Below are positions 6,231-58,025 of a DNA stretch of 64,000 nt, in pieces (within the stretch, counting starts at the first letter, position 1; each line of letters starts with the position of its first letter). This DNA is from Synechococcus sp. PCC 7336 (GTDB lineage Bacteria > Cyanobacteriota > Cyanobacteriia > Thermostichales > PCC-7336): NCBI RefSeq assembly GCF_000332275.1, contig NZ_CM001776.1, positions 4,834,008-4,898,007 on the forward strand, given 5' to 3'. The position numbers and the translations under genes are program-made. The notes under the pieces were generated by a model. The model did no database searches. It was not told the DNA's origin and worked only from the letters and a program-made list of their open reading frames with translations.

Positions 6231-6255
6231 GGTTATAGAGCGATTGTTTGAGATC

Positions 6256-19211: not shown

Positions 19212-22200
19212 CTAGCGCATTCGCGAGGGGCGGCGCTGGCGGGAAGCTAGGCGGCTGGCGGCGCGATCGCGGCTGCGATCGGCGGCTGTAGATTGGGTTT
19301 GGGTTTGCGTCAAATGGGCAGCGAGGGCGCTGACGGTGGTGTATTGGAAGAGGTCGGTGATGGCAATGTTGCGATCGAATAGCTCGCGCAGTTTGGCGTG
19401 CATGGCGATGACGGAGAGGGAGTGGCCGCCTAAATCGAAGAAATTATCCTGAATGCCGACGGTTTCAAGGCCGAGAATCTCCTGCCAGAGGCTGGCAATC
19501 TGGCGCTCGGCCTCCGTGCGGGGGGGGACGTAGGTCGCTTCCAGATCGGGGCGGTTGAAGTCGGGGTCGGGTAAAGCTTTCCAGTCCACCTTGCCGTTTG
19601 CGGTGAGGGGCAAGGTTTTCAGCAGGGTGAAGCTGGAGGGGCGCATGAAGGGGGGCAGCTTCTGCCGCAAAAAGTCTCGCAGGTCGCTGGTGCTGGGGGA
19701 CGCTTGCCCCTTGGCGGCGACGAAGTAGGCGGCCAAGCGGCGATCGGTGGCGCTCTTGGTCCAGACGGTAACAGCGGCTTGTTGAATGGCTGGATGCTGA
19801 ACCAGAGCTGCTTCAATTTCCCCCAGTTCGATGCGATAGCCACGCAGTTTCACTTGGCGATCGCTGCGACCGACAAACTCCAGCTTGCCGTCGGCAAGAT
19901 AGCGAGCCCGATCGCCGGTTTTGTAGAGTCTGGCTCCCTCTTCTCGGCTGAAAGGATCTGGCAGGAATCGCTCTGCCGTGAGGCTGGGGCGATTGAGGTA
20001 ACCGCGAGCCACTTGCGCCCCGCCGATATAGAGGTCTCCCACCACCCCAATCGGCACGGGTCGAAGCTGGCTATCCAGTACGTAGGCTCGGCAGTTGGCG
20101 AGGGGTCGTCCGAGTGGGACGGTATCTCGGGTATCCGCTGAACTTGTTGCATGAGTCAGGACACCTACGGTTGTTTCAGTGGGACCGTAATGGTTGAGGA
20201 CGGCACAGTGATTCGATTGCAGCACTTCGAGCAGATCTCGACTCAAGGATTCGCCCCCCAAGACCAATTGACGTTTGGGGAGTAGCGCTTCCGGGGTACC
20301 GGAGAGTAGCAGTGCGGCCAAGTGAGAAGGAACGATCTTGAGACAATCAATCGGATGCTGCTGGAAGTAGGCGGTTAGGGCAGCGGCATCGGCCACTTGC
20401 GCTTCGGGAATGACGTGCAAGCAGCCGCCGGAGGTGAGGGCGGGGAAGAGAACGGTGTTGCCGAGATCGGCGGCCAAGGTGGAGACCAAGGCAAAATGGG
20501 CGGCTGCGGGCAGGTCCAACTGGGTCGAAATTGCTTGTAGGTAATTGAGCATTTGACGATGCTCGATCGCCACCCCCTTGGGGGTTCCCGTCGAACCTGA
20601 CGTGTAGAGCGCGTAGGCCAGATTGGTAGCGCAGTTCTGGCAGGGAAGATTGTCGTCAGGATAGGTGGCGATCGTATTGGCGTCGCTGCCATCGATATAA
20701 ACCACCGCCGATACCGAATCGGGAACCCTAGCGGCGAGGCGGGTTTGGCTAATCAGGGCGATCGCCTTAGCATCCTGAAGGCGCTGAGCTGCCGCTTCAA
20801 CAGGCAATGTGGGGTCGAGGGGCAGGTAGGCACCGCCTGCTTTGAGTACTGCTAGTAGCGCGACGATGGCATTAGGAGAGCGCAACAGAGAAATACCGAC
20901 GATTGTTTCGGGACCGACCCCCAAGCTTTGCAAGTGTCGAGCCAGTTGATTGGCCTTTGGGTTCAGTTGGCTGTAGGTGAGCTGTTGCCCGCCCCCCGCC
21001 ACGGCAACGCGATCGGGATATTGCTCGACTTGCGCTTCAAAGAGGGTGTGGAGGCCATCGATCGCGGCAAACGATTGTTCGGTTTGGTTGAACGCTTGCA
21101 GAAGTTGGTGGCGATCGCGGTCGTCGAGAATTTCTAGGCGATCGATCGGGCGATCGGGATGGGCCAGGGCATCCTCTACGAGAGCGAGAAACTGCTGTTT
21201 CAGCCGCTGGATATCTGACAGCAGCAAGCGCTGAGTGTCGTAATGGAATTCGAGGGTAAGACCGCGATCGCTGTGGAGACAGGTGAGGGCGAGCTTGAGG
21301 CGGTGACTGTAAACCCGTTGTCGTTCTAGGGCGAGGGCGGTGGAGCCGTTGCGAATAGGGGCCGAGCTACTTGCCCATTCAAAGCCAATCCCTTCGCCAT
21401 GGGTTGCAGCTTCATTCTTGTCAGATGCATAGCCGAAGCTATCTCGGTACTCTTTCGCCGTCGTGGAACTGCTCTGGGATTGGGCGAGGACTTCTGCAAA
21501 TCGGTAAGACGGTTGCAGTGGGTAGCGCAGGGGGAGCCATTTTGCCAGTGGGCCAATGACCGACGCTAATTCCTCCTCATCCCGACCGTCGGCCAGTAGA
21601 TGCAGTTTTCCCTCCGTTTCTCCCGTCAGCTTCCACAGCAAAACTTGCCAGCAAGCGAGTAAAACATCAGCGACTTCGACCTCTTGCTGTCGGGCTAGAA
21701 CCGTCAGTCGAGTCACGGTTTCGGCAGACAGTTGCTCGACCAGAGCGCTAGGGACGAATGTAGGCGTTGCCGATCGCTCCAAAGGCAATGGGAATGGAGG
21801 TGTTGGGGCCGATTGTTTTGGCCAGTAGTCGTCTTCCTCAGTTGCGAGCAATTCATTTTGCCATTCGGAAACCTGGAGGTACTGGACCGGATCTTTATCC
21901 TCCTCGATCGCTCTGCCATCCAGCTCGTAGGCGCTGGCGATCGCGCGCGATAGCAGTTGAAGCGAAAGGCGATCGCCGCAGAGCCCCGAAAGTGTCAAGA
22001 TTAGCCAGCTTTCGCGCTCGGACAAGCTCGCTCGAACTGCTCTCAGGCTCTGGCCTCCTTCCACCAGCTGCTGCTGTTCCGCTTGCAAGCAAGCTTGTTG
22101 GCGAGCGATTTGTTCCGCTTGGGGCAATTCACTCCAATCGCACTCTTTCCAGGTCGGGGGCACAGTCGCAGCGATCGCTTGGAGGGGCAGCTTGGTGCCG

Positions 22201-22427: not shown

Positions 22428-22446
22428 GGAATTGGCCGTTAGCAAT

Positions 22447-22490
22447 GGTTGAGCGAATCGAGGTTGAGCGAATCGAGGTTGGGCGACTGA
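22447..22490. repeat. Short tandem repeat between NRPS genes
   Basis: The 15-base unit GGTTGAGCGAATCGA occurs twice in tandem (22447-22461, 22462-22476), followed by a degenerate third unit (GGTTGGGCGACTGA). It occupies the 74-base gap between two synthetase genes. No function is evident; slippage may vary the spacing. Confidence 0.8.
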
Positions 22491-22501
22491 AACTGCACGC
22501 G

Positions 22502-25500
22502 CTATGGAGACGGCAGAGACTCCAGCGGTTCTTCTGGGATGGCAGCGGTATGCATATCTCCCATTGCCACAAAGATTTTGCGGGGGCCTCGGAAGGGATT
22601 GCGGCTGTGGGCGGCAAGCATGTTGTCGATCGCTAGCACGTCCCCCTGTTGCCAGGGGAATACCGTTTGAGCGCGATCGTAGGCGGCTTGAATGGCAGCG
22701 ATCTCTTCCGGTGCGATCGCCGAGCCGTCGCCGTAGTAAGCGTGACGGGGCAGATTCTCCTCACCCCACGTATCCAGTAGCGACTTTTGGAGGTGGGCAT
22801 CGAGGCAGGCGACGTGGTGGAGCAGCAGTTGATTGAACCAGATGCGATCGCCGGTTTTAGGGTGTTGGGCGATCGCGGGGCGAATTTGGCGGGTTTTGAG
22901 TCCTGCTGCTGCCGTCCATTCCCACTGCACCCGATCGCGCTGGCACCTCGCCTCCACCTCGGCGCGGTCTTCTGTATTGAAAAACTGCTGCCAACTGACA
23001 TCGAAGCCGGGAATAAAATGCCGCGTGTAGGCGATTTGGCGTTGCTCGAAGCGATCGAGCAGATCGGGATCGAGCAGGCGGTAGATTTCGCGTCCGTCGG
23101 CAATCGGCGTTTCGCCACCTTCTGCGGGGGCAATAGAGCAGTAAAAGCAAATTTTCATCGGCCATTGCTGCAGGTGGGAGCTCTCGTGATGGAACAGGAT
23201 TGCTTTGTCGGCTGGGTAGGGGGTAGAGCCGTAGACCTTGCCGCCGATGCTGGCCCGAGGTAGGTCGCCATAATTGGCAAACAGTTGCGGACAGATGGCT
23301 CGGGCAAAAGCTTCAAACTTCTCGATGGATTGCAGTTGCTGGCTGCGGAAGAGTAAACCGCCGCGCGCAATCAGGTTCTCTTCAATCCAACTGCGATGGC
23401 TGGCAGCCCAATCCACTAAGTCTGTATCGTCACTGGCGGGTTCCACGAGTAGCGGTAGCGGGCTGGTATCGCTCAAGGGCCGCGCTGTTACGAGTGGACG
23501 ATCGGCGATCGCCTTGGGCTCGATCTGGGCGAACTTGGAGAACTTACGCTGCGATCGCTTGGCTTTGCGGGCTGCCTGCGTCTTTTGTTCTTCTGGGGTC
23601 AACATATCGAGGCTGTCAATGCGGCTAGTGGGGCTGTGGGCAAAGCTGCTCAGAAGGAGGGTGAGATGTTGCGATAGTTGGCGGATGGTGGCTGCATCGA
23701 AAAGGTCGGCACTGTAGCGCCACATGCCCTGCAAACCCGCGCTGGTTTCGCTGACGAAAAGAGCGATGTCGAACTTGGCTCTTTCGTTGGAGATCTCCAT
23801 CGGGCTCAGGGTCAAGCCGGGGAGTTCGATCGGGGTAAACGGCACATTTTGGAACACCAGCAACACTTGGAACAGCGGCGTACTATTGGCCTGACGGTTC
23901 GGTTGCAGTTCCTCCACCAGTTGTGAGAAGGGAATATCTTGGTTGGCATAGGCATCCAAGCAGGTGCGGCGCACCCGCTGTACCAGTTCCTCGACGCTGG
24001 GATTGCCAGAGAGGTCGGTGCGAATCGTCAGCAAGTTGACGAAAAAGCCAATGGCACTTTCCAGTTCGGTGCGGTTGCGGTTGGCAACGTCCGTGCCGAT
24101 GACAACATCTTGCGTCTGGCCGTGGCGAGAGAGCAGCAGGGCCAAGGCCGCCATCACCTGCATGAAGGGGGTTGTGTCGGTTTGCTGGCACAGTTGGTTG
24201 AGGGCAGCGGTGTCTGCCGCCGAGAGCTGGAAGGACTCGCTACCGCCGCGATAGCTGCGCCGAACTGGGCGAGGGCGATCGCCCTTTAACACCAGCGGCG
24301 AACTCCCGGCCAACTGCTGCTGCCAGTACTGCAATTGCGCTTGTAGAACGGCACCATCCAATTGCTGCCGCTGCCAAACGGCAAAATCGCCGTATTGAAT
24401 CGGTAGGGCGGGTAAGGGGGAGGGCTGGCTGGCAGCGTAGGCAGTATAGAGGGCCGACAGCTCCCGCACTAAAACCCCCATCGACCAAACATCGGAAATG
24501 ATGTGATGGGTGGTGAGGATGGCAGCGTACTCGCGCTCGTCCATTTGCAGGAGTTGAAGCTGGAGCAGGGGACCGCGCTCCAAGTTGAAGCAGCGCGAGC
24601 TTTCCCCCTGCATCTGTCGTGCCAGCGCTGCCTCTCGATCGCTGGGGTCGAGGTGGCGTAAATCCTTGTGGGCAATTGCCAGTGATGCGGGCGGGGCGAT
24701 CGCCTGCACGGGCTCGCCATTCTCCAAACTGAAGGTGGTGCGCAGTGACTCGTGGCGACTCACGACTTCGTCGAGGCAGCGTTGCAGGATATCGCGATCG
24801 AGATCCCCCTCAAGGCGCACGGCTATCGGAATCGTGTAGGCGGGGTTGTTGGGATAGAGGCGATCCTCAATCCACAAGCGCTGCTGGGCTAGCGACAGGG
24901 GCAGAGGCCGATCGCGGGGCACAGTCGGAATGGCGATCGCGACCTCCTGCCGCTCCACTTGCAAGAGTCGCTCGATCTGCTCGGCGATCGCCGCAATGGT
25001 GGGGGTGGCAAACAGCGATCGCAGCGGTAGCTCCACCCCGAACTCCGTGCGGATGCGGGAGATGATTTGGGTGGCGAGGAGGGAATGGCCGCCCAGATCG
25101 AAGAAGTTGTCGTCAATGCCGATGCCATCGCGAGCGAGGATGGGAGTCCAGATTTGGCAGAGTTTTGCTTGTGTTGGGGTTTGGGGCAGCACAGCTGCGT
25201 CCGCCAACTGAGGGGCGATCGCTGGGGGGGCGGGGAATGCCTTGCGATTGACCTTGCCATTGGGGGTGAGGGGGAAGTCTTCCAGGATGACGAAGGCAGT
25301 CGGCACCATGTAAGCGGGCAGCTTCGAGCGGAGGAGATTCCGCCCAGCAGTAATTGGGCCATCACTCGCTCGGGAAGCTGCGAGTGCGGGAATGACATAA
25401 GCCACCAGTCGTCGATCGCCCTCGCGATCTTCGCGCACGACGGCAACAGCCGCTCGAATATCGGGGGCTTCCAGCAAGCAGGATTCAATTTCCCCCAACT

Positions 25501-28500
25501 CGATGCGAAAGCCGCGCAGTTTGACCTGGTTGTCGATGCGCCCGAGGAATTCCAAGCTGCCGTCGCGACGGTATCGCACGCGATCGCCAGTCTTGTACAG
25601 CCTTGCCCCCGGTCGTTCGCTGAAGGGATCGGGGCAGAAGCGAGCGGCGGTGCGAACCGGTTGCTTGCAATATCCCCGCGCCAGTCCCGCACCCCCCACA
25701 TGCAATTCCCCCGGTACGCCTAGAGGGGCCAGTTGGCCGCAGAGATCGAGGACGTAGAGCTGCGTATTGCCGAGGGCACAACCGAGGGAGATCGCTTCCA
25801 CTGCTGGTGCGATGCGCTGGAACGCCGTCCAAATGGTCGCTTCGGTGGGACCGTAGAGATTCCACAATTCCCGGCAGGAGCGGCTCAGGGCTCGTGCCAG
25901 CGGCAACGGTAACGCCTCGCCGCCGCAGAGAACTTGCAACTGCTTGTCACCCGACCAGCCCGAATCCAGAAGCATTTGCCAGGTGGCGGGGGTAGCCTGC
26001 ATCGCCGTTGCGCCACTGGAGGCAACGAGCTGGCCTAGCCGTACTCCATCCGCCGCTACGGCGCGGGTGGCGATCGCCACCCGCGCCCCAACCGTCAGAG
26101 GCAAAAACAATTCCAGTGCCGCAATATCGAACGATAAAGTTGTGACCGACAGCAGCACATCTTTCGGACTCAGACTCAACTCCTGCTGCATCGCCCTCAG
26201 GAAATTGACGACGGCAGCGTGGGAAATCTGTACCCCTTTCGGCCTGCCGGTGGAGCCGGAGGTATAGATCTGGTAGGCCAACTGCTGCGGATGGGTTGTC
26301 GTCGGCAGTGGGGCATCGTGGCCGGAGGCGATCGCCTCGGAGCCCTCGTCTAGAAGCACCACGCGAGCCTCGCCAACGGGCAAGCTCTCCAGTAGGTGCG
26401 CCTGCGTCACCACAATCGCTGCCCCACTGTCTCGCAGCATGTAGCTCAGTCGCTCGGCGGGATAGGTGGGGTCGAGAGGGACGTAGGCTCCGCCCGCTTT
26501 GAGAATGGCCAGCATTCCCACCAGCATTTCGACGGAGCGATCGATGCAGAGGGCCACGAGCGTGTCGGTGCCCACACCCAGGGGGTGGAGGTGGCTGGCG
26601 ACGCGATGGGCCAGGATATTGAGTTCGCCGTAGCTCAGCGATCGCCGCTCGTCTGTAACGGCGATTGCGTCGGGCGATCGTACCGCCTGAGTTGCAAACC
26701 ATTCGTGCAAGCCGAAGCTGGGAACGTCAGTGAAGTCCTGCCCTTGCCCCCAGCACCGCAGGCGATCGCCTTCTTCACGTTCGTAAAGGGGCAACTCCAA
26801 CCAGTTGCGATCGGGGGTGCGCACTGCCGCTGCCAGCACAGTCCGGTAATGGCTGGCCATCTGGGCGATGGTTTCGCCATCGAACAAATCGGTGTTGTAT
26901 TCCCAAGCCGCAAAGATGCCCGCTTCGGTCTCCTCCATCAGAAGGCTGAGATCGAACTTAGCGGTTTTGACTTCCGTTTCCACTGGCGAGAGGATGAGCC
27001 CCGGCAACTGCAGCTCTGCTTTGGGGGTGTTTTGCAAGGAAATGGCCACCTGAAAAACCGGACTGTGGCTCAACTGGCGTTCGATCGGCAGCGTTTCCAG
27101 CAATTGCTCGAAGGGTAAATCTTGGTGGGTATAGGCTTCGAGCGCCACCTGGCGAACCCGTTGCAGAACGGCGCGGAAGCTAGCCAATGCCGTCAAATCC
27201 GTGCGGATTGCCAACGTGTTGGTGAAAAAGCCAATGGTTCCTTCCAGCTCGGCGCGGCTGCGATTGGCGATCGGAATACCGACGACAATATCGCTGCAGT
27301 TGGCATAGCGACAGAGCAAGACCTGGTAAGCCGCCATCAGCACCCCGAACAGGGTGGCCCCTTCCGATCGGCCCAACTCCAGCAACTCGTCCCGCAGTTG
27401 GATGGGCAGTAGATCGACATGGCGATCGCCCCGATAGGTCTGGAGGGCGGGGCGGGGGCGATCGGTGGGTAACTCCAGCAGGCTGGGGGCTCCGGCAAGC
27501 TGTTGGTGCCAGTATTTGAGCAATTGCTCTAGCCCTTCCCCCTGCAGCCACTGCCGCTGCCACACGGCGAAGTCAGCATACTGAATGGGCAACTCCGGCA
27601 GGGGCACCTCTCGTCCGGTGGTGAAGGCAGTGTAGAAGGCCGCCAGTTCCCGCAGGACGATCGCGCGGGACCAGGCATCGAAAATGATGTGATGGGTGTT
27701 GAACAGGGCGATGGATTCTGTCGCCGAAAGCTTGAAGATCGTCACCCGCACCAAGGGACCTGTGGCGAGATCGAAGGGCATGCGCGCCGCTTGTGCCACC
27801 AGTCGCTCCACTTCATCGTTGCGTTGGGCTGCCGGTAAGGGTTGTAAGTCAACCACGGGCAGCGATCGCGGTTGATAAGGAGCGATCGTCTGGACGGGTT
27901 TGCCCTCCACTTCTGCAAACGTGGTCCGCCAGACTTCGTGCCGTCGGGCGATGGCGTTAAAGCTGCGTTCCAGGGCAGAAAGGTCTAGTTTCCCACTGAG
28001 GCGCAGGGTGAAGGGAATGCTGTAGGTGCTGCGATTGGGTTCGAGGCGATCGAGGAGCCACAGCCGCTGCTGGGCATACGACAGGGGCATCGTTGACTGA
28101 CGCTTGACGGCAACGAGGGGCGGGGCGTCGAGGGCTCGATCTTGACGCATCAGGGTTTCAATCGCCTGGGCCAATCCTGCTACGGAGGGCTGTTCGAAGA
28201 GTGCGGCTAGGGGCAGCTCGACCTCGAAGGCGCGGCGCAGCCGAGAGATAGCCTGCGTGGCGAGGAGAGAATGACCGCCAAGGGCAAAGAAGTTGTCCTC
28301 CAGACCGACTCGTTCGACCTTCAGTAGCTGGGACAGGATTTGGGCGATCGACTGTTCGACATCGGTGCGGGGCTGGACGTAGGTGCTGGCGGAGGCGAGG
28401 GAGCTGGGAGCGGGTAATGCTTGCAGATCTACTTTGCCGTTCGGCGTCCGAGGGAATTGCTCTAGCAAGACGAACGCAGCGGGCACCATGACATCGGGTA

Positions 28501-31294
28501 GCTGCTGCTGGGCGAACTGCTTCAAGTCAGCAATCGAAACGGACTCGGGGCGATCGCACCTCAGGTAAGCCACTAGCTGTGGCAAGCCGGGTGTTTCTTC
28601 GGTAACCCTGGCAATGCAGTCTCGAATATCGGCAGAGTGCGACAGAGTGGTTTCGATTTCCCCCAATTCGATCCGGAATCCGCGTATCTTCACCTGGCGA
28701 TCGCTGCGACCCAAGAACACCAGCGTGCCATCGGGCAGATAGCAAACTCGATCTCCCGTTTTGTAGAGGCGATCGCCAGGACGATCGCTCCAAGGATTGG
28801 GCAAGAAGGCGGCTGCCGTTAACTCCGGGCGGTTGAAATAGCCACGCGCCAAGCCTGCTCCAGCGATATACAGTTCCCCAGCTATCCCGGTTGGGACGGG
28901 CTCGAAGTGCTCGTCGAGAACGTAGAGCTGAATGTTGCCCAACGGCCTACCCAACGGTACGGTGTCCGAGGCTTTGCCGGAGCTAACTTCCGGTACGGGG
29001 TAAGTGAGGACTCCGACGGTACTTTCAGTGGGACCGTAGTGATTGAGAATGCGGCAACTGGGAGCTAGTTCGCGAAGGCGATCGATATCCGACCAATGGG
29101 ACGCTTCGCCTCCCAGCACGAGACATTTCTTGGGCAGAATGCTGGCGGCATTGGTGGCCTCCAATAGTGCGGCCAAGTGGGAGGGGACAATCTTGAGATA
29201 GTCGATCGCCTCTTGGCGACAGTAATCCGCTAGGGCATCGGGGTCGGCCAGTCGCTCTTGGGTGATGACGTGCAGGCAACCACCACGACAGAGGGCGGGG
29301 AAGATGACGGTGTTGCCCAAGTCGGCAGCGAAGGTAGAGACAGTAGCGAAGCGGTCCTGCGGGGTGATGTCGAGCTTAGGGGCGATGCCCTGTAGGTAGT
29401 TGCACAAATTCCGGTGGGTAACTTCCACCCCTTTCGGCACTCCAGTAGAGCCCGAGGTGAACAGGATGTAGGCGAGATTGTCGGGGCTAGCAGTGGGGTC
29501 GAGATCGTCCTTGGGGATGCTGGCAATATCCCAATCGCGATCGAGACAGAGAACCGGGATCTCGATCTCTGAAACCGATTCGACGAGGCTGCTATGGGTC
29601 AGTAGCAAGGCAGGGCGCACGGCCTGGAGGCGCACGCTCAAAGCAGCGGCGGGCAAGCCGGGATCGAAGGGAACGTAAGCGCCACCGGCTTTGAGAATGC
29701 CGAGCATGGCAACGATGCAATCGAGCGATCGCGGCAGCCAAAGACCGACGGGTATCTCCGGTCCTACCTCCCGACCTTGTAAGTAACGGGCCAGTTGGTT
29801 GGCTCTAGCATTTAACTGAGCAAACGTCAGACTGTCCCCTTCGCACATCAGGGCTGGTGCGTCCGGCGTGCGGGCCACTTGCTGCTCGAAGAGGTGGTGA
29901 ATGCAGTCGTTTTCTGAATAGGCGATCGTTGTGTCGTTGAAGCGTACCAATACTTGCTGGCGCTGGCGCTCGCTGAGGAGAGACAAGCTGGCAATGGCAC
30001 GATCTGGTTCTGCGATCGCCCCTTGCAAGAGGCTTTGGAACTGCTCGACTAGGGAGGCGATCGCCTCCGGCGTGCAGGCAGCAGTGTCGTAGTGAATCTC
30101 GGGATGGAGCGATCCGGTCGAACGAAGGCATTGCAACTGCAAACAGAAGCGATCGCTGTAGCTGGATTGAGCCTCGATCTCCAAAGACAGCGGCCCCGCC
30201 GATCGAGGGGCGGGTAGCTCGCTCGCAGTGAAGCTGAGCGGATAGAAAGACTCGCCAATGTCAGCACCGCCTCCAGCCGCCTCTTCCCAAGTGAAGGATT
30301 CCTGCCATTGAGCCGTTTCGCGGCTGGCTTGCAGCGATCGCCGCACGACATCGCGGAGGCTATCGGTAGCCGTCAGCGGACAAGAGACAGGAAGCACTTT
30401 GGCAAACAGGCCGAGGGCGTCTTCCAGTTCTTCGTAATTGCGTCCGTCGGTACTCACACCGATGGCGGCAGCAACGCCAGTGGTTCGCCAGAAAAGGATG
30501 CGCCAAATGGCTAATAGAACATCAGAGACAGTTGCTTCCTCCGCTTGGGCGATCGCCTCTAGGGCTGCGACATCGGCGGGTTCCAGGTCCAGCGGAATAG
30601 CGCGAGGCTGAAATGGCTGACCCTGCGGTAGCCGCAGCAACGGGGGGCAGACGGCCAAGGCGGAGCGATCCTGTTGCTGCCAGAACCGTCTCCCGATCGC
30701 AGCTTCATCGCTGTCAAAAAGCTCGTGCTGCCATTCGGAAAAATCAATGTACTGGAAAGGCTCGTCCGTTAAGGCTGAGGGACCGAGGCTAGCACTATAG
30801 AGCTGGCCGAGTTCTCGGACGAATCGTTCGAGGGAGAGGCGATCGCAGCACAGAGCGGGCAGGCGAATCAGCCACTGATGCTGTTGTTCGGCCCATTGAA
30901 TAACGGTGAAATCTACAATGGGCAAACGATCTAGCCTCAAAGGGGCCTCTGCCAGTGCCTGCTGTTGGGTAGCCAGTGCCTGCTGCCGTTCTACCTCTGC
31001 CAGGTGACCGAGATCGATCGCCCTCAAGGCAACCGGCCGATCGACTGTCTCGTGGACCACCTGTAAGGGAATATCCATCCCCGGCAGCGCCTCAAATGTG
31101 GTTCGCAGGATTTCGTGCCGTTCTACCAACTCTTGCAAAGCCGCTGTCAGCTTCTGGCGATCGAGAGGGCCGCCAACTCTTACGGAGGCGATCGCCGTAT
31201 AAGCTGCTCCATCTCCCTCCCCTTGCTGCAACCAGAGATGTTTTTGCTGGGGGGAGAGTCTAAAGCCTTGAATCGTGGTTGCTTGGGTTTGCAT
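22502..31294 (-). CDS. NRPS C*-A(Asp)-PCP-C-A(Gly)-PCP-C-TauD
   Basis: A 2930-residue bimodular synthetase with a fused hydroxylase. ATG at 31294 overlaps the stop of the free-standing dioxygenase gene by one base (TGATG). Domains: C* at about 1-440 (HHxxxDG reads PALCCDR, residues 146-152); A at about 470-965, pocket D-L-T-K-V-G-H-V-G = Asp; PCP near 1003; C with HHIIFDA near 1203; A with pocket D-I-L-Q-L-G-L-I-W = Gly (YTSGSTG near 1676); PCP near 2064; C with HHIISDV near 2263; a basic linker; and a TauD/TfdA-type Fe(II)/2-oxoglutarate dioxygenase at about 2590-2930 with HxE in FHHESSH and the distal His in LAAHSRNPF. The hydroxylase has no carrier after it in this protein, so it most likely acts on the Asp carrier of the next protein or of this one. 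Confidence 0.93.
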   Translation of the reverse strand: MQTQATTIQGFRLSPQQKHLWLQQGEGDGAAYTAIASVRVGGPLDRQKLTAALQELVERHEILRTTFEALPGMDIPLQVVHETVDRPVALRAIDLGHLAEVERQQALATQQQALAEAPLRLDRLPIVDFTVIQWAEQQHQWLIRLPALCCDRLSLERFVRELGQLYSASLGPSALTDEPFQYIDFSEWQHELFDSDEAAIGRRFWQQQDRSALAVCPPLLRLPQGQPFQPRAIPLDLEPADVAALEAIAQAEEATVSDVLLAIWRILFWRTTGVAAAIGVSTDGRNYEELEDALGLFAKVLPVSCPLTATDSLRDVVRRSLQASRETAQWQESFTWEEAAGGGADIGESFYPLSFTASELPAPRSAGPLSLEIEAQSSYSDRFCLQLQCLRSTGSLHPEIHYDTAACTPEAIASLVEQFQSLLQGAIAEPDRAIASLSLLSERQRQQVLVRFNDTTIAYSENDCIHHLFEQQVARTPDAPALMCEGDSLTFAQLNARANQLARYLQGREVGPEIPVGLWLPRSLDCIVAMLGILKAGGAYVPFDPGLPAAALSVRLQAVRPALLLTHSSLVESVSEIEIPVLCLDRDWDIASIPKDDLDPTASPDNLAYILFTSGSTGVPKGVEVTHRNLCNYLQGIAPKLDITPQDRFATVSTFAADLGNTVIFPALCRGGCLHVITQERLADPDALADYCRQEAIDYLKIVPSHLAALLEATNAASILPKKCLVLGGEASHWSDIDRLRELAPSCRILNHYGPTESTVGVLTYPVPEVSSGKASDTVPLGRPLGNIQLYVLDEHFEPVPTGIAGELYIAGAGLARGYFNRPELTAAAFLPNPWSDRPGDRLYKTGDRVCYLPDGTLVFLGRSDRQVKIRGFRIELGEIETTLSHSADIRDCIARVTEETPGLPQLVAYLRCDRPESVSIADLKQFAQQQLPDVMVPAAFVLLEQFPRTPNGKVDLQALPAPSSLASASTYVQPRTDVEQSIAQILSQLLKVERVGLEDNFFALGGHSLLATQAISRLRRAFEVELPLAALFEQPSVAGLAQAIETLMRQDRALDAPPLVAVKRQSTMPLSYAQQRLWLLDRLEPNRSTYSIPFTLRLSGKLDLSALERSFNAIARRHEVWRTTFAEVEGKPVQTIAPYQPRSLPVVDLQPLPAAQRNDEVERLVAQAARMPFDLATGPLVRVTIFKLSATESIALFNTHHIIFDAWSRAIVLRELAAFYTAFTTGREVPLPELPIQYADFAVWQRQWLQGEGLEQLLKYWHQQLAGAPSLLELPTDRPRPALQTYRGDRHVDLLPIQLRDELLELGRSEGATLFGVLMAAYQVLLCRYANCSDIVVGIPIANRSRAELEGTIGFFTNTLAIRTDLTALASFRAVLQRVRQVALEAYTHQDLPFEQLLETLPIERQLSHSPVFQVAISLQNTPKAELQLPGLILSPVETEVKTAKFDLSLLMEETEAGIFAAWEYNTDLFDGETIAQMASHYRTVLAAAVRTPDRNWLELPLYEREEGDRLRCWGQGQDFTDVPSFGLHEWFATQAVRSPDAIAVTDERRSLSYGELNILAHRVASHLHPLGVGTDTLVALCIDRSVEMLVGMLAILKAGGAYVPLDPTYPAERLSYMLRDSGAAIVVTQAHLLESLPVGEARVVLLDEGSEAIASGHDAPLPTTTHPQQLAYQIYTSGSTGRPKGVQISHAAVVNFLRAMQQELSLSPKDVLLSVTTLSFDIAALELFLPLTVGARVAIATRAVAADGVRLGQLVASSGATAMQATPATWQMLLDSGWSGDKQLQVLCGGEALPLPLARALSRSCRELWNLYGPTEATIWTAFQRIAPAVEAISLGCALGNTQLYVLDLCGQLAPLGVPGELHVGGAGLARGYCKQPVRTAARFCPDPFSERPGARLYKTGDRVRYRRDGSLEFLGRIDNQVKLRGFRIELGEIESCLLEAPDIRAAVAVVREDREGDRRLVAYVIPALAASRASDGPITAGRNLLRSKLPAYMVPTAFVILEDFPLTPNGKVNRKAFPAPPAIAPQLADAAVLPQTPTQAKLCQIWTPILARDGIGIDDNFFDLGGHSLLATQIISRIRTEFGVELPLRSLFATPTIAAIAEQIERLLQVERQEVAIAIPTVPRDRPLPLSLAQQRLWIEDRLYPNNPAYTIPIAVRLEGDLDRDILQRCLDEVVSRHESLRTTFSLENGEPVQAIAPPASLAIAHKDLRHLDPSDREAALARQMQGESSRCFNLERGPLLQLQLLQMDEREYAAILTTHHIISDVWSMGVLVRELSALYTAYAASQPSPLPALPIQYGDFAVWQRQQLDGAVLQAQLQYWQQQLAGSSPLVLKGDRPRPVRRSYRGGSESFQLSAADTAALNQLCQQTDTTPFMQVMAALALLLSRHGQTQDVVIGTDVANRNRTELESAIGFFVNLLTIRTDLSGNPSVEELVQRVRRTCLDAYANQDIPFSQLVEELQPNRQANSTPLFQVLLVFQNVPFTPIELPGLTLSPMEISNERAKFDIALFVSETSAGLQGMWRYSADLFDAATIRQLSQHLTLLLSSFAHSPTSRIDSLDMLTPEEQKTQAARKAKRSQRKFSKFAQIEPKAIADRPLVTARPLSDTSPLPLLVEPASDDTDLVDWAASHRSWIEENLIARGGLLFRSQQLQSIEKFEAFARAICPQLFANYGDLPRASIGGKVYGSTPYPADKAILFHHESSHLQQWPMKICFYCSIAPAEGGETPIADGREIYRLLDPDLLDRFEQRQIAYTRHFIPGFDVSWQQFFNTEDRAEVEARCQRDRVQWEWTAAAGLKTRQIRPAIAQHPKTGDRIWFNQLLLHHVACLDAHLQKSLLDTWGEENLPRHAYYGDGSAIAPEEIAAIQAAYDRAQTVFPWQQGDVLAIDNMLAAHSRNPFRGPRKIFVAMGDMHTAAIPEEPLESLPSP

Positions 31295-32361
31295 CAAACT
31301 GTTCCCTCCCCTTGCAGCACCGTCCGGTCGTAGGGCTCGTCCATACCGACCACCACCTGTCGTTCGCCAGTGAAGGGCCTCCGACCGTGAGCCACAAGCA
31401 TGTTGTCGAGCAGCAAAATGTCCCCCGTTTGCCAGCGGAAGGCAACGGTATGTTCGGCGTAGGCAGCGCGAACGATCGCGAGGATCCGATCTGCAATGGG
31501 AGTACCGTCGCCGTAATAGGTATTGCGGGGCAAATCTGCTTCATCTACCACTGCCAGCAGAGATTGCCGCGTTTCCGGCGGCAAATTCGCAACGTGGAAG
31601 AGATGAGCTTGGTTGAACCACACCCAAGCTTGGGTCTGGGGATGCTGTGCCACCGCCTGACACACCTGGCGCGTGCGCAGGCGATCGCCCGAGCGCCATT
31701 CCCATTCGATGCCCGCAGCCCGACAATACTGCTCCACTGCGGCCCGATCCTCCGTTTGAAACACCGTCTGCCAGGGCAAATCCAGTTCGCGGCTGTAGTT
31801 GCGCACGTAGAGCACCTGTTTGCGGGCGAAGGTATCTCGGATTTCGGGGTCGAGGCTGGCCCACACTTTGTGGCTGTCGGCGATCGGGGTTTCTCCTCCC
31901 GTGGCGGCAGATTGCAGGCAACTGAAACCGATGCGCATCGGCCAGTTGCGAGAGTAGGACATCTCGTTGTGGAGGGGAATAGATTCGGAAGCGGGATAGG
32001 CAGTGGAGGTGTAAATGCGGCCTCGAACCGGCGATCGCGGTGTGGAGCGATAGGCATATTCCATCAACTCGCCACCGAGAGCCGCAAACAAGCTTTCTAG
32101 AGTTTCGGCCCCAACGTTAGTGAAATTGCGGCAGAGGAGACCGCCGTGAAGCCACAGTTGCGCTTGAATCCATTGCCGTTGCTCGGCGGCCCAGCTCGTT
32201 AAATTCAGTCCTTCCACTGCCGGACTGACGACTAAAGGCAAGAGAGTATCGGGCTGCAGGGGGGCAGTCGTCACCAACTGAGTGGCAGACACTTGGATGC
32301 CGCTCCCGCGCTGGCGGCGCGATCGCAGTCCCAATTTTGGTTGGGTGCTGGCGTTATGCAT
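31294..32361 (-). CDS. TauD/SyrP-like Fe(II)/2-oxoglutarate dioxygenase (probable Asp beta-hydroxylase)
   Basis: A free-standing 355-residue homologue of the dioxygenase domain at the end of the next synthetase. The iron-binding triad is visible: His131 and Glu133 in PLHNEM and His325 in LVAHGRRPF. Shared blocks include LLCRNF/LLFRSQ, WPMRIGF/WPMKICF, GGETPIAD and YYGDG. Members of this group (SyrP is the prototype) hydroxylate the beta-carbon of carrier-bound Asp or His. The ATG at 32361 overlaps the TAA of the upstream synthetase by one base, and its own stop overlaps the next start, so translation is coupled. The following protein begins with C*-A(Asp)-PCP, the expected substrate site. The N-terminal 50 residues, rich in Arg/Gln, resemble the linker before the fused copy and may bind the synthetase. 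Confidence 0.9.
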   Translation of the reverse strand: MHNASTQPKLGLRSRRQRGSGIQVSATQLVTTAPLQPDTLLPLVVSPAVEGLNLTSWAAEQRQWIQAQLWLHGGLLCRNFTNVGAETLESLFAALGGELMEYAYRSTPRSPVRGRIYTSTAYPASESIPLHNEMSYSRNWPMRIGFSCLQSAATGGETPIADSHKVWASLDPEIRDTFARKQVLYVRNYSRELDLPWQTVFQTEDRAAVEQYCRAAGIEWEWRSGDRLRTRQVCQAVAQHPQTQAWVWFNQAHLFHVANLPPETRQSLLAVVDEADLPRNTYYGDGTPIADRILAIVRAAYAEHTVAFRWQTGDILLLDNMLVAHGRRPFTGERQVVVGMDEPYDRTVLQGEGTV

Positions 32362-35300
32362 TAGCGGTCTTCACCTCCCAAATAAGCTGCGGCACTGCGA
32401 CGGATCGCCTGACGGCGAATTTGGCCCAACTTTTGGCGGCGGACCTGTTTGAAGCTCTGCTGGCTGGAGGTTTGCAACAGTTTCTGTAGCTCGCCCACCT
32501 GTATCTCTGGCTGTTCGACAGCGCGTTTGAGCAATGCCCTGAGGTGTTCCCCCATCGGCTCCACGCTGGCGAGGTCGAGGCGATCGCGATCGTAAATCAA
32601 CTGCAAAAGCAATTCTTGTTTGGGTACTCCCCGCAGGGTGAGGGGATAGCCGTTGTCGATTTCGTTGCCCAACCCCTGCAGGGAGAGGTTGGCCACCTGC
32701 TGCTCTAAGGCAGCGTCGATGGGATAGTTTTCGAAGACAACGATGCTCTCGAACAGCGCCCGACCGCGCGGCACATTGCTCCAAGACTGAACTTCTGTCA
32801 GGGGACTGTAAGCATAGCGGTTGACCTCAACTTGGGCCGCCTGCAACTGCTGCAACCAGGTCAGCAAATCCGCTCGACCATCAACCCGTACCCGCACCGG
32901 TAGCGTGTTGATAAACAGGCCAACTGTGGCCTCTACCCCTTCTAAATCGGTGGGTCGGCCCGCCACCGTTGCGCCAAAAACGATATCTAGTTCGCCACTG
33001 TAATGGGCCAGCAGCAGCGACCACAACCCTTGAATCAGGGTGTTGAGGGTGAGGCGATGCTGACGCACCCAGGCATCCAGTTGCGCGCTACTTTCGACGG
33101 TGAAGGGAATATTGCACTCGGCATAGTGGGATTCAGATTTGGAGCTAGAGGCAAGACCGGCCTGATGGCCCAAGCGATCGATCGCTAGCGGCTGCGTCCA
33201 GCCCGCCAGATACTCCTGCCAGAAGGTTTTGGCCTCATCCAAGCTCTGGGACTGCAGCCAGACAATGTAATCCCGATAGGGAGGAGACGCTGGTAAAGGT
33301 ATCTCTGCTTTGCCCGCAGACAAGCTCCCGTAGGCGGATAGCACCGCTTGCACGACCAACGGCAGCGACCAACCATCGAGCAAGAGATGGTGGCGGCTCC
33401 AGACAAAGTAGTAGGTTTCCGGGTCGAGATGAATCAGAGTCAGCCGCATCAGGGGGGGCCGACCGAGGTCGAAACCCCGTTCGCGCTCGGCGAGCAAGAA
33501 AGCTTCGAGCCGTTCGGCCTGCACTTCTGTCTCAAAATCTCGCCAATCCAGCTCTATCCAGGGCAGCGGCACCTCGTGATGGACCGCCTGTAGGGGTCGA
33601 TCCAACTCCTGCCAGAGGAAAGCTGTACGGAGAACACCGTGCCGCTCGATCGCCGCTGCCCAAGCTTGTTGGAAGTTGTGGATATTGAGAGCTCCGGTAA
33701 TTTTGCAGCTCATTTGGTCGAAGTAGAGACCGGCTTCGGGGGAGTAAAGGGTGTGGAAGAGCAGGCCCGCTTGAATGGGGGAGAGGGGATAGAGATCGGC
33801 GATCGCCCGACTGCGACCGAAGAGTTTGTGGAGGGTGGGGGTGTCTAATTGCGCGAGGGGGAAGTCCGAGGGGGTGTAGCCACCTGCGTTGGGAGCTTGG
33901 CAGTGGTCGGCCAAGTCTTGCAGGGCTTGAAGGGTTTGTTGGGCCAGTTGGGTGACGGTGCCCTGTCGGTGCAGGTCCGGGCTGTAATGCCAGTGGAGGC
34001 AGAGGCTACTGTTGTCGAGGTGGGCGGTGACGGCTAGTTTTTCGGGGCGATCGGTCTGCATAGAGTCGGGACTGAGAGATTGCTTGAGGGCGGGACTCCC
34101 GTGGGATGTGCCCCCCGACAAGGGCTCGCAATAACTGAAGGCAATGGCGGCTGCGGGCCAGTGCGATCGCCCCTCACTGTCGCTGCTGCCTTGCAGGAGA
34201 TCGCAACCCACACCGCCATTGGGCACCTGTCGCACAGCCTCTTTAATGCGTTTGAGGGTGGTTCCGGGGGACTGGCGATCGCCGTTAGGTAGCAACAAGG
34301 GAAATGAGCTAGTGAAATCTCCCCCATTGCCATCCACCTGCAGCAATAAAGACTGTTTGGGGTCGCAGCAAGCGGTGGCGAGGGCACTGAGGACGGCATC
34401 AGTGAGGCTGGCGTTATAGAGGGCGGGTAAGGCTTCGAGCAGGCTGCGGGTTTCTGCGTTGCTGAGGCTAACAGAGACCGTCTCGGGCTTGGCGATGGTA
34501 GAGGCCGTGGTGGAGCAATCTGTGGGTAAGTGGGTGAGGTCCGCCGTTGCGATCGCCTGCCAATAGGTCTCCCACTCCGCCTGTAAATGAGTTGACTGAG
34601 CTTCCTGCTGCAATCGTTCTCGTCCAGCCTTAGCCGATGCCGTAGCTGCCAACTCAGCAATGGTTTGATTCTGGAATAAGTCTTTGGGGGTGAGGGGCAA
34701 ACCCGCTTGTTTGGCTTTGGCGATCGCCTGCATCGCCAGGATGGAATCTCCCCCCAGCTCGAAGAAATTGTCGCCAATACCAACGCGATCGCGATCGAGT
34801 ACATCTGCCCAGATACCGCAGAGCCGCTCTTGTACCGGAGTTTGCGGCGGCTCGAAGGCGATCGCACTTTCTGGGCTGCCCTCTGGGGCAGGTAGCGCCT
34901 TGCGATCGATCTTGCCGTTGGGGGTGAGGGGGAAGGTTTCCAGTACAACGAAGGCGTGGGGAACCATATAGGCGGGTAGCTTGGCCTGGAGGAGCTGACG
35001 CCAGACCTTGCTGCGATCGACCGCATTGGCAGGGGGTTCGTCCTGGGGAATCACGTAGGCCACCAGTCGTTTATCCCCTGCGCGATCCTCGCGGACGATG
35101 GCAACTGCGGCCCGCACAGCCGATGCCTCCAATAAGCAGGACTCGATTTCCCCCAACTCGATTCGGAAGCCGCGCAATTTGATCTGGTTGTCGATGCGCC
35201 CGAGGAATTCTAGGCTGCCATCGCGCCGATATCGGACCAGATCGCCGGTTTTGTAAAGCCTCGCCCCCGCTTGCGAGCTAAACGGATCGGGACAGAAGCG

Positions 35301-37895
35301 CTCGGCAGTGAGATCCGGTCGCTTGAAATACCCCCGCGCCAATCCGGCACCGCCAACGTGCAATTCGCCGGGGACATTCGCAGGCACCAAGTGGGAATAG
35401 CAATCGAGCACGTAGAGTTGGGTGTTGCCGATCGCCCGACCGAGGGAGACAGCAGCAGCATCGGGTGCAACGCGATCGACCGCCGTCCAAACCGTAGCCT
35501 CGGTCGGTCCGTACAGGTTCCACACTTCGCCGCAAGAGCGGCTCAGGGCTTGTGCCAGCGGCAAGGGCAGCGCCTCGCCGCCGCACAGCACTTTAAGTTG
35601 AGCGTCTCCAGTCCAGCCCGAGTCCAGAAGCATTTGCCACGTCACTGGAGTGGCCTGCATCGCCGTTGCCCCACTCGATCGCATTAGCTGGGCGAGTTGC
35701 AGCGCATCTGCTGCCGCCTCTCGACTGGCGATCGCCACCCGAGCCCCCACAATGAGCGGCAGGAAGATTTCCAAAACGGCGATATCGAACGACGAGGTTG
35801 TCACCGCCAGCAGGATATCGCTGGGCTCCAACCCCGGTGCCTGCCGCATTGCCGCCAAGAAATTGACGACCGCAGCGTGGGAAATCTGCACGCCTTTTGG
35901 CGTAGCGGTGGAGCCGGAGGTGTAGATCTGGTAGGCCAATTGCTGCGGATAGACCATGGGCAAAAGGTCGTCCCCTGCTGTTGCCCCAGCGTCCAAACCT
36001 TCAAAATCTCGATCCAGCAACACCACCTGGGCCTCGTGTTCCGGCAGAGCGCCTTGCAGGTGGCTTTGGGCGATCGCCACTGCCGCACCAGAGTCCTGCA
36101 GCATCAGGGCCATTCGCTGGGAGGGATAGGCCGGATCGATGGGAACATAGGCCGCGCCCGCTTTGAGAATGGCCAACATGCCGACGGGCATGGCAGCGGA
36201 GCGATCGGTGCAGAGGGCAATGAGGCGATCGCTGCCCGCGCCCAAGCGGCGCAATTGTCGGGCCACTCGGTTGGCTCGCTTGTCCAGTTCTCGATAGGTC
36301 AGCGATCCCTCGGCATCCACAATCGCGATCGCATCGGGGGTTTGCTGCACCTGCTGCTCGAAGAGCTGGTGCAGGCAGACATCGGGGTGAACTGGCAGGG
36401 CAGGGGCGCGGCTGGTTTGGAGAATGGGGTCGATGTCCGACTCGGCCAGCAAGACCAGCTCTGAGAGGCGGCGAGTGGGATGAGCCACGATATCGGTCAG
36501 GATCGTCTGGAAATGCTTGGCAAAGTCGGCGATCGTGGCAGTGTCAAATAAATCGGTGCTGTATTCCAAGACACAGGTGAGCTGTGCGTCAATTTCGGCC
36601 ATATCTAGGCTGAGATCGACGCGGCAGGTGCTGTGGCTGACGGGGAGAGGGCACAGTTGCAGTCCAGACAGCTCTAGCGACTTTTGCATGGGGGTCTGGT
36701 GCAAGGCAAACCACACTTGGAACAGAGGATTGCGACTCAGATCGCGATCGGGCTGGAGAGTTTTGACTAAGACATCGAAGGGGAGTTCTTGGTGGGAGAG
36801 GGCGGCAACTGTTGTCTGACTGACGCGTTGGAGCAGTGTTTTGAAAGGGGGATTATCTTGCAGGGTCGATCGCAGCAAGACCGTATTGGCGAAAAACCCG
36901 ATCGCCGATTTCAGTTGGGGGCGATCGCGGTTGACCATTGCCGTGCCGATGGTGATGTCCCCCTGCCCCGTGTAGCGATAGAGCAGGGTCTTGAAGGCGG
37001 CCAGTAGCGTGACAAATAACGTGCAGTTTTCGGCTTTGCTCAGATTTTTGAGTTCCTCGTAGAGCGCGTCTGGCAAAGCCAATCTGTATTTGGCACCCGC
37101 AAACGATTGCACGGCAGGACGCGGGCGATCGGTCGGCAGTTGTAGGGCGGGGCGTTCCCCGGCCATCTGTTGCTTCCAGAATTCCAGTTGATGGGCAAAA
37201 CGCTCTCCCTGCAACCATTGCCGCTGCCAGATGGCATAGTCGGCAGATTGAATCGGTAACTCGGGCAGCGGAGCAGGGCGACCTGTCGAAAATGCCGTGT
37301 AAAAAGCGTGGAACTCTTGCAAGAGAATGCCCACCGACCAGCCATCGGCCAGGATGTGGTGGACGGTGGCCAGCAAGATATATCGCTGCGACCCCAGCAG
37401 GAGAATGGCAGTGCGGAGCGGTGGCTGGCGATCGAGCTGGAAGGGATGTTGCGCAAACTCGGCGGTCAGCCGTTCGAGTGCTACCTCTTGCTGCCCTTCA
37501 GATAAGTCAGCCAAGTCGATCGCCACACATGGCATTGCGAGCTCGGGGGCGATCGCCTGCGTGGGCTTGCCCTCTGCAGTCTCGACAAAGTAAGTGCGCA
37601 GGACTTCGTGGCGGCGGAGGATTGCGGCAACACTCCGCTGCACTATAGGAACATCCAAATTGCCGACAATTTCGATGGCAATGGGGCTGTTGTAGGAGGC
37701 GCTCCCCGGTTGGAGCTCGTCCAGGAACCAGAGCCGCTGCTGGTTGAAGGACAGGGGAATAAAATCGGGTCTGGGATGCTGGGGCTGAATCTGGCGTTGG
37801 GGCGATCGCTCCGATTGTTGGCCCAGTTGCAGCCGTTGCATCAGGAGCTGACGCTTTTCTGGCGATAAGTTTGCAAGTCGGGCCGAAAGGCTCAT
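32361..37895 (-). CDS. NRPS C-A(Gly)-PCP-half E-C
   Basis: An 1844-residue synthetase. ATG at 37895 (MSLSARLANLSPEKRQLL) has GGAG about 8 bases upstream and gives a normal C-domain leader. Domains: C at about 40-460 (HHILADG near 181); A at about 490-990 with pocket D-I-L-Q-L-G-L-V-W = Gly, closely related to the second A domain of the next synthetase; PCP near 1047 (FFELGGDSIL, the type that precedes epimerases); then only the C-terminal half of an epimerase domain (about 1095-1345; SSFPLLL and VPNGGVGCDLLQG are recognisable, while the N-terminal half with HHxxxDG is gone); then a complete C domain at about 1365-1800 (SPIQAGLLFHTL, HHLLLDG near 1504), of the kind that follows epimerases. A basic tail follows. 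Epimerisation would be pointless on Gly, consistent with decay. Confidence 0.92.
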   Translation of the reverse strand: MSLSARLANLSPEKRQLLMQRLQLGQQSERSPQRQIQPQHPRPDFIPLSFNQQRLWFLDELQPGSASYNSPIAIEIVGNLDVPIVQRSVAAILRRHEVLRTYFVETAEGKPTQAIAPELAMPCVAIDLADLSEGQQEVALERLTAEFAQHPFQLDRQPPLRTAILLLGSQRYILLATVHHILADGWSVGILLQEFHAFYTAFSTGRPAPLPELPIQSADYAIWQRQWLQGERFAHQLEFWKQQMAGERPALQLPTDRPRPAVQSFAGAKYRLALPDALYEELKNLSKAENCTLFVTLLAAFKTLLYRYTGQGDITIGTAMVNRDRPQLKSAIGFFANTVLLRSTLQDNPPFKTLLQRVSQTTVAALSHQELPFDVLVKTLQPDRDLSRNPLFQVWFALHQTPMQKSLELSGLQLCPLPVSHSTCRVDLSLDMAEIDAQLTCVLEYSTDLFDTATIADFAKHFQTILTDIVAHPTRRLSELVLLAESDIDPILQTSRAPALPVHPDVCLHQLFEQQVQQTPDAIAIVDAEGSLTYRELDKRANRVARQLRRLGAGSDRLIALCTDRSAAMPVGMLAILKAGAAYVPIDPAYPSQRMALMLQDSGAAVAIAQSHLQGALPEHEAQVVLLDRDFEGLDAGATAGDDLLPMVYPQQLAYQIYTSGSTATPKGVQISHAAVVNFLAAMRQAPGLEPSDILLAVTTSSFDIAVLEIFLPLIVGARVAIASREAAADALQLAQLMRSSGATAMQATPVTWQMLLDSGWTGDAQLKVLCGGEALPLPLAQALSRSCGEVWNLYGPTEATVWTAVDRVAPDAAAVSLGRAIGNTQLYVLDCYSHLVPANVPGELHVGGAGLARGYFKRPDLTAERFCPDPFSSQAGARLYKTGDLVRYRRDGSLEFLGRIDNQIKLRGFRIELGEIESCLLEASAVRAAVAIVREDRAGDKRLVAYVIPQDEPPANAVDRSKVWRQLLQAKLPAYMVPHAFVVLETFPLTPNGKIDRKALPAPEGSPESAIAFEPPQTPVQERLCGIWADVLDRDRVGIGDNFFELGGDSILAMQAIAKAKQAGLPLTPKDLFQNQTIAELAATASAKAGRERLQQEAQSTHLQAEWETYWQAIATADLTHLPTDCSTTASTIAKPETVSVSLSNAETRSLLEALPALYNASLTDAVLSALATACCDPKQSLLLQVDGNGGDFTSSFPLLLPNGDRQSPGTTLKRIKEAVRQVPNGGVGCDLLQGSSDSEGRSHWPAAAIAFSYCEPLSGGTSHGSPALKQSLSPDSMQTDRPEKLAVTAHLDNSSLCLHWHYSPDLHRQGTVTQLAQQTLQALQDLADHCQAPNAGGYTPSDFPLAQLDTPTLHKLFGRSRAIADLYPLSPIQAGLLFHTLYSPEAGLYFDQMSCKITGALNIHNFQQAWAAAIERHGVLRTAFLWQELDRPLQAVHHEVPLPWIELDWRDFETEVQAERLEAFLLAERERGFDLGRPPLMRLTLIHLDPETYYFVWSRHHLLLDGWSLPLVVQAVLSAYGSLSAGKAEIPLPASPPYRDYIVWLQSQSLDEAKTFWQEYLAGWTQPLAIDRLGHQAGLASSSKSESHYAECNIPFTVESSAQLDAWVRQHRLTLNTLIQGLWSLLLAHYSGELDIVFGATVAGRPTDLEGVEATVGLFINTLPVRVRVDGRADLLTWLQQLQAAQVEVNRYAYSPLTEVQSWSNVPRGRALFESIVVFENYPIDAALEQQVANLSLQGLGNEIDNGYPLTLRGVPKQELLLQLIYDRDRLDLASVEPMGEHLRALLKRAVEQPEIQVGELQKLLQTSSQQSFKQVRRQKLGQIRRQAIRRSAAAYLGGEDR

Positions 37896-37968
37896 GGGGC
37901 AATCTCCAGGGCAATGGGAGCTAGGTCTGGGAACTCGAAGGATTTCAAGATTTGGAGTGTGACAAGAT

Positions 37969-58011: not shown

Positions 58012-58025
58012 GGTCAAACTCCCAT

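Follow-up and report, generated by a model that had tools for sequence, protein, structure and literature searches.

Free and fused TauD-type hydroxylases have been described within one siderophore pathway for cyanochelin B (PMC12628792) and for the potashchelins (PMC7100376, where cupriachelin is discussed too). Cyanochelin B, whose structure has been solved and which contains two beta-hydroxyaspartate (beta-OH-Asp) residues, is encoded on plasmid 2 of Leptolyngbya sp. NIES-3755 (AP017310.1). The fused enzyme of this pathway precedes the L-threo beta-OH-Asp, and the free one, together with an epimerisation (E) domain, the D-threo residue. An oxidase-modified polyketide lies beside the thiazoline at the other end of the molecule from the beta-OH-Asp residues, and the ferric complex splits under UV light (PMC12628792). 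In the case of the potashchelins of Halomonas sp. MG34, the free PtcA belongs to the R clade of hydroxylases and the fused PtcB domain to the S clade (PMC7100376). CyanoBH_Asp1 and CyanoBH_Asp2 are cyanobacterial Asp hydroxylases of cyanochelin-type clusters (PMC12971057).

The locus studied here has the same general design. We analysed a stretch of 64,000 nucleotides (the window), corresponding to bases 4834008-4898007 of a single-contig 5.07 Mb genome whose host is a cyanobacterium by its relatives, and also read the flanks, 40 kb upstream and 20 kb downstream. Every biosynthetic gene discussed is on the minus strand (Table 1). In transcription order, with genes separated by slashes and I denoting the condensation-like domains that lack the HHxxxDG histidines, the assembly line starts with FAAL-KS-AT-DH-cMT-ER-KR-ACP / KS-AT-KR-T / LLM monooxygenase / C-A-MT-T-C-C'-A-T / KS-AT-KR-T, continues with C-A(Gly)-T-(half E)-C / TauD / I-A(Asp)-T-C-A(Gly)-T-C-TauD / I-A(Asp)-T, and ends with KS-AT-T-E' / C-A(Pro-like)-T-C-AMT. 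The amino acids given for the non-Asp A domains (Gly, Pro-like and Lys-like) are tentative readings of their codes. Genome-wide, all condensation-domain matches fall in the cluster except one at 3132618, and the only two TauDs of the genome are both in the cluster. The equal length (1982 aa) of the ORFs at 8449-14397 and 58026-63974 was considered as a meaningful pairing and dismissed as a coincidence, their domains being different.

The hydroxylases lie at two consecutive junctions. At the first, an NRPS ending in an intact C domain is followed by the free TauD gene, which overlaps each neighbour by 1 nt (TAATG upstream, TGATG downstream), and then by an NRPS opening with I-A(Asp), in which LPALCCDR is found at 30859-30839. 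At the second, this same NRPS ends with a C domain (HHIISDVW) and a fused TauD, and the next NRPS again opens with I-A(Asp), the motif being LSGLCGDR at 21989-21969. An alignment of 48 A domains gave the pocket D-L-T-K-V-G-H-V-G for both Asp modules. The first-pass annotation had described two such C-TauD-I-A(Asp) junctions, one TauD being free and overlapping both neighbours and the other fused to the C-terminus of the preceding NRPS, with this Asp pocket in both A domains; the Pfam domains, motifs, coordinates and alignment agree with it on each of these points.

Table 1. Coordinates, in the window, of the biosynthetic genes and domains and of the possible export pair.
Feature	Position	Strand	Basis
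FAAL...KS-AT-DH-cMT-ER-KR-ACP, first gene of the line	58026..64000, continuing past the window edge; start at genome 4902007	-	
PKS KS-AT-KR-T	53275..58017	-	Pfam
Luciferase-like monooxygenase (MupA/Atu3671 family)	52190..53260	-	TIGR04020; start set at MDFSLFFF
NRPS C-A-MT-T-C-C'-A-T, C' with HQIAADG	42644..52117	-	Pfam, motif, code
PKS KS-AT-KR-T	37969..42700, approximate	-	Pfam; ORF opens at 42972, start likely ~MHNSTAIAPDG
NRPS C-A(Gly)-T-(half E)-C	32361..38003	-	Pfam; code DILQLGLVW; HHLLLDGW
Last C of NRPS 32361..38003, upstream of free TauD	32460-33800	-	Intact HHLLLDGW
Free TauD-type Asp beta-hydroxylase (predicted)	31294..32361	-	PF02668 E 1.4e-49; HxE...H; free clade
NRPS I-A(Asp)-T-C-A(Gly)-T-C-TauD	22502..31297	-	Pfam, codes, architecture
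I (interface) domain 1, LPALCCDR replacing HHxxxDG	29951..31258	-	PF00668 match, motif, interface clade
A domain, first Asp, pocket DLTKVGHVG	28415..29890	-	Pfam, code alignment
Fused TauD-type Asp beta-hydroxylase domain (predicted), C-terminal in NRPS 22502..31297	22550..23458	-	Ligands; fused clade with NIES-3755
NRPS I-A(Asp)-T	19212..22445	-	Pfam, codes
I (interface) domain 2, LSGLCGDR replacing HHxxxDG	21099..22373	-	PF00668 match, motif, interface clade
A domain, second Asp, pocket DLTKVGHVG	19590..21041	-	Pfam, code alignment
PKS KS-AT-T + E-like domain, HE replacing HH	14433..19163	-	Pfam, motif, E clade
NRPS C-A(Pro-like)-T-C(HQ)-aminotransferase	8449..14397	-	Pfam; code DVQFIAQVA; mycosubtilin AMT match
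Adaptor (RND/HlyD type) + MacB-type permease, possible export pair	5007..7695	-	

The cyanochelin B cluster, like the window, starts with a FAAL, includes a PKS with an LLM-type oxidase and Gly modules, and has both a free and a fused TauD, behind each of which stand an interface domain and an A domain carrying the Asp code; its TonB receptor adjoins the cluster. The monooxygenase of the window is a free relative of the cyanochelin B oxidase (44% identity). The two lines nevertheless differ. The fused hydroxylase comes first in cyanochelin B, whereas the free one does so in the window. The cyanochelin B line has a Cys cyclisation domain, a Ser module with E, an E domain after the second Asp module and a reductive end, whereas the window has a PKS after the second Asp, a Pro-like module and a terminal aminotransferase; Gly takes the place of Ser, and the tree of C-family domains revealed neither a cyclisation nor a full E domain. 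The product would thus not be cyanochelin B proper. A FAAL-initiated hybrid PKS/NRPS with two predicted beta-OH-Asp modules and siderophore transport genes accompanying the cluster points instead to a further cyanochelin-type beta-OH-Asp siderophore system, a divergent cyanobacterial addition to a class with UV-cleavable ferric complexes. The design itself is common and has been published before.

We read the two junctions as the part of a cyanochelin-type hybrid PKS/NRPS siderophore line that builds its chelating core, with two interface-docked Asp hydroxylations, and give this reading a probability of roughly 85%. In the mechanism that we infer from the architecture, the A-domain codes, the active-site residues, the clades and the uptake genes, the fatty acyl-AMP ligase would load a lipid, and the PKS and NRPS modules would extend the chain. 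At each Asp module the interface domain, devoid of the bond-forming histidines, would dock a TauD-type Fe(II)/2-oxoglutarate hydroxylase, which would hydroxylate the beta carbon of the Asp on the carrier; the first Asp would be the substrate of the free enzyme and the second that of the fused domain. The two beta-OH-Asp residues would provide four Fe(III) donor atoms. No cyclisation domain and no salicylate or hydroxamate genes were recognised, nor is a third pair of Fe(III) ligands apparent; this pair may derive from the monooxygenase-modified polyketide segment. For re-entry of the ferric siderophore into the cell, the genes upstream would supply the TonB receptor, the periplasmic binding protein and the FecCD importer.

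These transport genes were found in the upstream flank. Counted from where the cluster begins with its first gene, the only TonB siderophore receptor of the genome (TIGR01783) is 17 kb upstream and the only FecCD pair above the cut-off 24-26 kb upstream; the same stretch also encodes TonB, a FecE/FhuC-type ATPase and a type II thioesterase. The receptor, FecCD, ATPase and TonB genes span 17-28 kb upstream and are not contiguous with the biosynthetic genes. Directly adjoining the first gene, in divergent orientation and outside the window, are a TIGR01194 cyclic-peptide exporter and a Peripla_BP_2 protein. An export role had been proposed for a MacA/permease pair within the window. An adaptor and a permease are indeed present there; the adaptor is of RND/HlyD type and the permease of MacB type, and no ATPase gene stands beside them. 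The TIGR01194 protein is the more telling exporter. Upstream of the FecCD genes, a 15/19 match to a cyanobacterial Fur-box consensus was noted at about 10542-10722 of locus L002 (genome 4928443-4928622), and one of 100 shuffles gave as good a match.

Since the Asp codes, the clades of the TauD and I domains, and the proximity of the only TonB receptor and the only FecCD pair all converge, both beta-OH-Asp and a siderophore product are well supported by the sequence data. Among the alternatives, the lipopeptide might carry beta-OH-Asp and yet be no siderophore; iron would then not be its target, and it could, for instance, be membrane-active. The eLife 2026 survey reports that hydroxylase profiles give false positives for beta-OH-Asp products that are not metallophores, turnercyclamycin being one of them (PMC12971057), and a search for a Fur box in the promoter region shared by the FAAL and exporter genes gave nothing above shuffles. 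We nevertheless consider this alternative unlikely: the receptor, the FecCD pair, the siderophore-type binding protein and TonB are encoded just upstream, and both TauDs group with the cyanochelin enzymes.

This grouping was obtained from a tree of 128 TauD domains. The fused domain of the window grouped with other fused domains (29 domains, 99%), and within them belonged to a small set that includes the fused domain of NIES-3755. The free enzyme was placed in the other large group, nearest to the enzymes of Leptolyngbya PCC 7375 and Heron Island J, and the free NIES-3755 enzyme of cyanochelin B shares its subgroup. The expected affinity of both TauDs for Asp beta-hydroxylases was thus recovered on the Asp side, in a tree built without His hydroxylases or SyrP-type enzymes, which by itself does not exclude them; the Asp codes of both modules argue against a His hydroxylase identity. 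An alignment of 15 sequences revealed that the HxE...H iron ligands and the 2-oxoglutarate Arg are intact in both proteins, H92, E94, H286 and R295 being invariant. With intact ligands of an Fe(II)/2OG dioxygenase and with relatives that serve a proven beta-OH-Asp siderophore, the two enzymes appear to be siderophore Asp beta-hydroxylases, and the pair most likely belongs to the CyanoBH_Asp1/CyanoBH_Asp2 class. By analogy with the characterized clades, the free enzyme should give the 3R (L-erythro) residue and the fused one the 3S (L-threo) residue; these assignments follow from the clades and from the fact that neither Asp module carries a cis E domain. They lead to a clean prediction, namely a single molecule containing one L-erythro beta-OH-Asp, made by the free enzyme, and one L-threo beta-OH-Asp, made by the fused one.

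It could also be that a single Asp is hydroxylated or that the enzymes are redundant, one TauD or interface domain having decayed, so that one enzyme serves both modules or one Asp stays plain. The fused TauD and both I domains form long branches in their trees, as such decay might produce, and other domains of the cluster are degenerate. We regard this as improbable, however, given that neither TauD has lost an iron or 2OG ligand, that both reading frames are open, and that the free and fused enzymes represent clades of old and separate standing, which pair with interface domains of their own. Two separate hydroxylations, one by each enzyme, remain the preferred reading.

The I domains had been proposed to be interface domains, and their phylogeny supports this. 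In a tree of 98 C-family domains, all 48 interface domains, including both I domains of the window and both interface domains of cyanochelin B, formed one group (SH-aLRT 100%). The tree separates this group from the E domains, from the cyanochelin B domain of DxxxxD cyclisation type and from the ordinary C domains, which form two groups; the clade takes its reference from the cyanochelin B domains rather than from the interface set published originally. Masking the motif residues left the group at 99% SH-aLRT, ruling out an artefact of the motif alone, and the tree placement likewise rules out ordinary C, cyclisation or epimerisation domains. Both domains match the PF00668 superfamily without the HHxxxDG histidines, fall in this separate clade, and adjoin a beta-hydroxylase and an Asp module; on these grounds we identify both as interface domains.

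The association of such domains with TauDs was also followed in a survey whose TauD relatives came partly from plasmid records and partly from 80 loci in named genomes, and in which the HHxxxDG column was read in 416 nearby C-family domains. As these loci were picked by similarity to the TauDs of the window, the proportions below are no estimate for whole phyla. The second His was missing in 120 of the 416 domains, and 101 of these 120 directly followed a TauD, which excludes chance as the source of the pairing. All 101 kept the Asp of the motif. The possibility that the I domains are ordinary condensation (or epimerisation or cyclisation) domains that lost their histidines and have no link to the hydroxylase, to which the loss of HHxxxDG taken alone and the existence of decayed C and E domains in the cluster would lend themselves, is very remote and, as far as sequence can do so, refuted by the interface clade, recovered with the motif masked too, and by these 101 domains.

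The presence of a free and a fused hydroxylase in one operon had been called unusual in the first-pass annotation, and this did not hold: besides the published pathways, the survey contains 22 other loci that have both a free and a fused TauD. The identical order C / TauD / I-A-T-C-A-T-C-TauD was found in four of them, from Oscillatoria sp. HE19RPO (L067), Desmonostoc muscorum (L074), Nostoc sp. (L087) and Brasilonema angustatum (L088). These four share both the domain order and the hydroxylase order of the window; their FAAL is in the protein just before the free TauD, whereas PKS and NRPS modules come first in the window. Among surveyed cyanobacteria, an interface domain lies behind 68/68 resolved free TauDs and 21/21 resolved fused ones. 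Interface domains beside free hydroxylases too, in cyanobacteria, are possibly less known. Both hydroxylase clades would thus use interface domains in cyanobacteria and, if this is true, a rule tying interface domains to fused enzymes is not universal.

The potashchelin and cupriachelin systems, which we compared from the publication, likewise combine one stand-alone and one fused TauD and yield two beta-OH-Asp diastereomers. They belong, however, to the Pseudomonadota, where the sampled free TauDs mostly precede a C domain with HHxxxD (4/5 resolved cases); an interface domain follows the fused TauDs (3/3). Four pseudomonadotal loci (L012, L013, L086 and L095) have, behind the free TauD and in place of an interface domain, a C domain that reads HHIAxD, and the C domains of these loci group in a clade of their own (99%). 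The free enzymes of Pseudomonadota nest inside the free TauD clade, and the simplest reading is therefore that these systems lost their interface domain. Two other arrangements were seen in the survey. In an Acidobacteria MAG (L085, 8187-10157), two tandem TauD genes lie ahead of one interface-A module, and in Methylocystis bryophila (L015, 9890-13000) an interface domain comes after a free TauD, and the A domain next in line reads DSALIAEVW, which is not an Asp code.

Several other domains of the cluster are degenerate or oddly placed. At 33864-34619, where it separates the T from the C domain of a module coded for Gly, an E domain is reduced to its C-terminal half; relatives have the whole domain there, and the corresponding cyanochelin B module combines a complete E domain with a Ser code. 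Gly being achiral, a Ser-to-Gly change followed by decay of the E domain is plausible. The E-like domain at 14499-16067, which belongs to the E clade, has HELAID, its second His being replaced, and stands behind a KS-AT-T carrier, an odd place for an epimerisation domain. At 44633-45934, a divergent C' domain with HQIAADG lies between an intact C domain and a Lys-like A domain, giving a third junction of this kind, C-C'-A, here without a TauD. This domain was considered as a third interface domain, which is not supported, as it fell outside the interface clade, also with the motif masked. Its best PDB sequence match is 7c1k, which we take to be a starter C domain, and no close relative was found in 292 cyanobacterial genomes. 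The line ends with a mycosubtilin-type AMT (8659-11163), and the C domain directly before it has HQLAFD. In at least eight other clusters, cyanochelin-like ones, genes related to this AMT (47-53% identity) are found just behind I-A-T, either on their own or as part of KS-AT-AMT-T proteins. By analogy with this position, the AMT likely acts on the beta-keto chain that the KS-AT-T module would make. The HQIAADG, HQLAFD and HELAID domains, all without the second His and near other enzymes, might serve as docking sites for the monooxygenase, methyltransferase or aminotransferase in the way that interface domains would for TauD, so that docking by catalytically dead condensation-family domains would reach beyond the TauD case; we hold this to be a quite doubtful proposal, and simple decay explains these domains equally well. 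Finally, a phage-type integrase gene was noted at 1364-2281, at the downstream edge of the cluster, which may sit in or near a mobile island.
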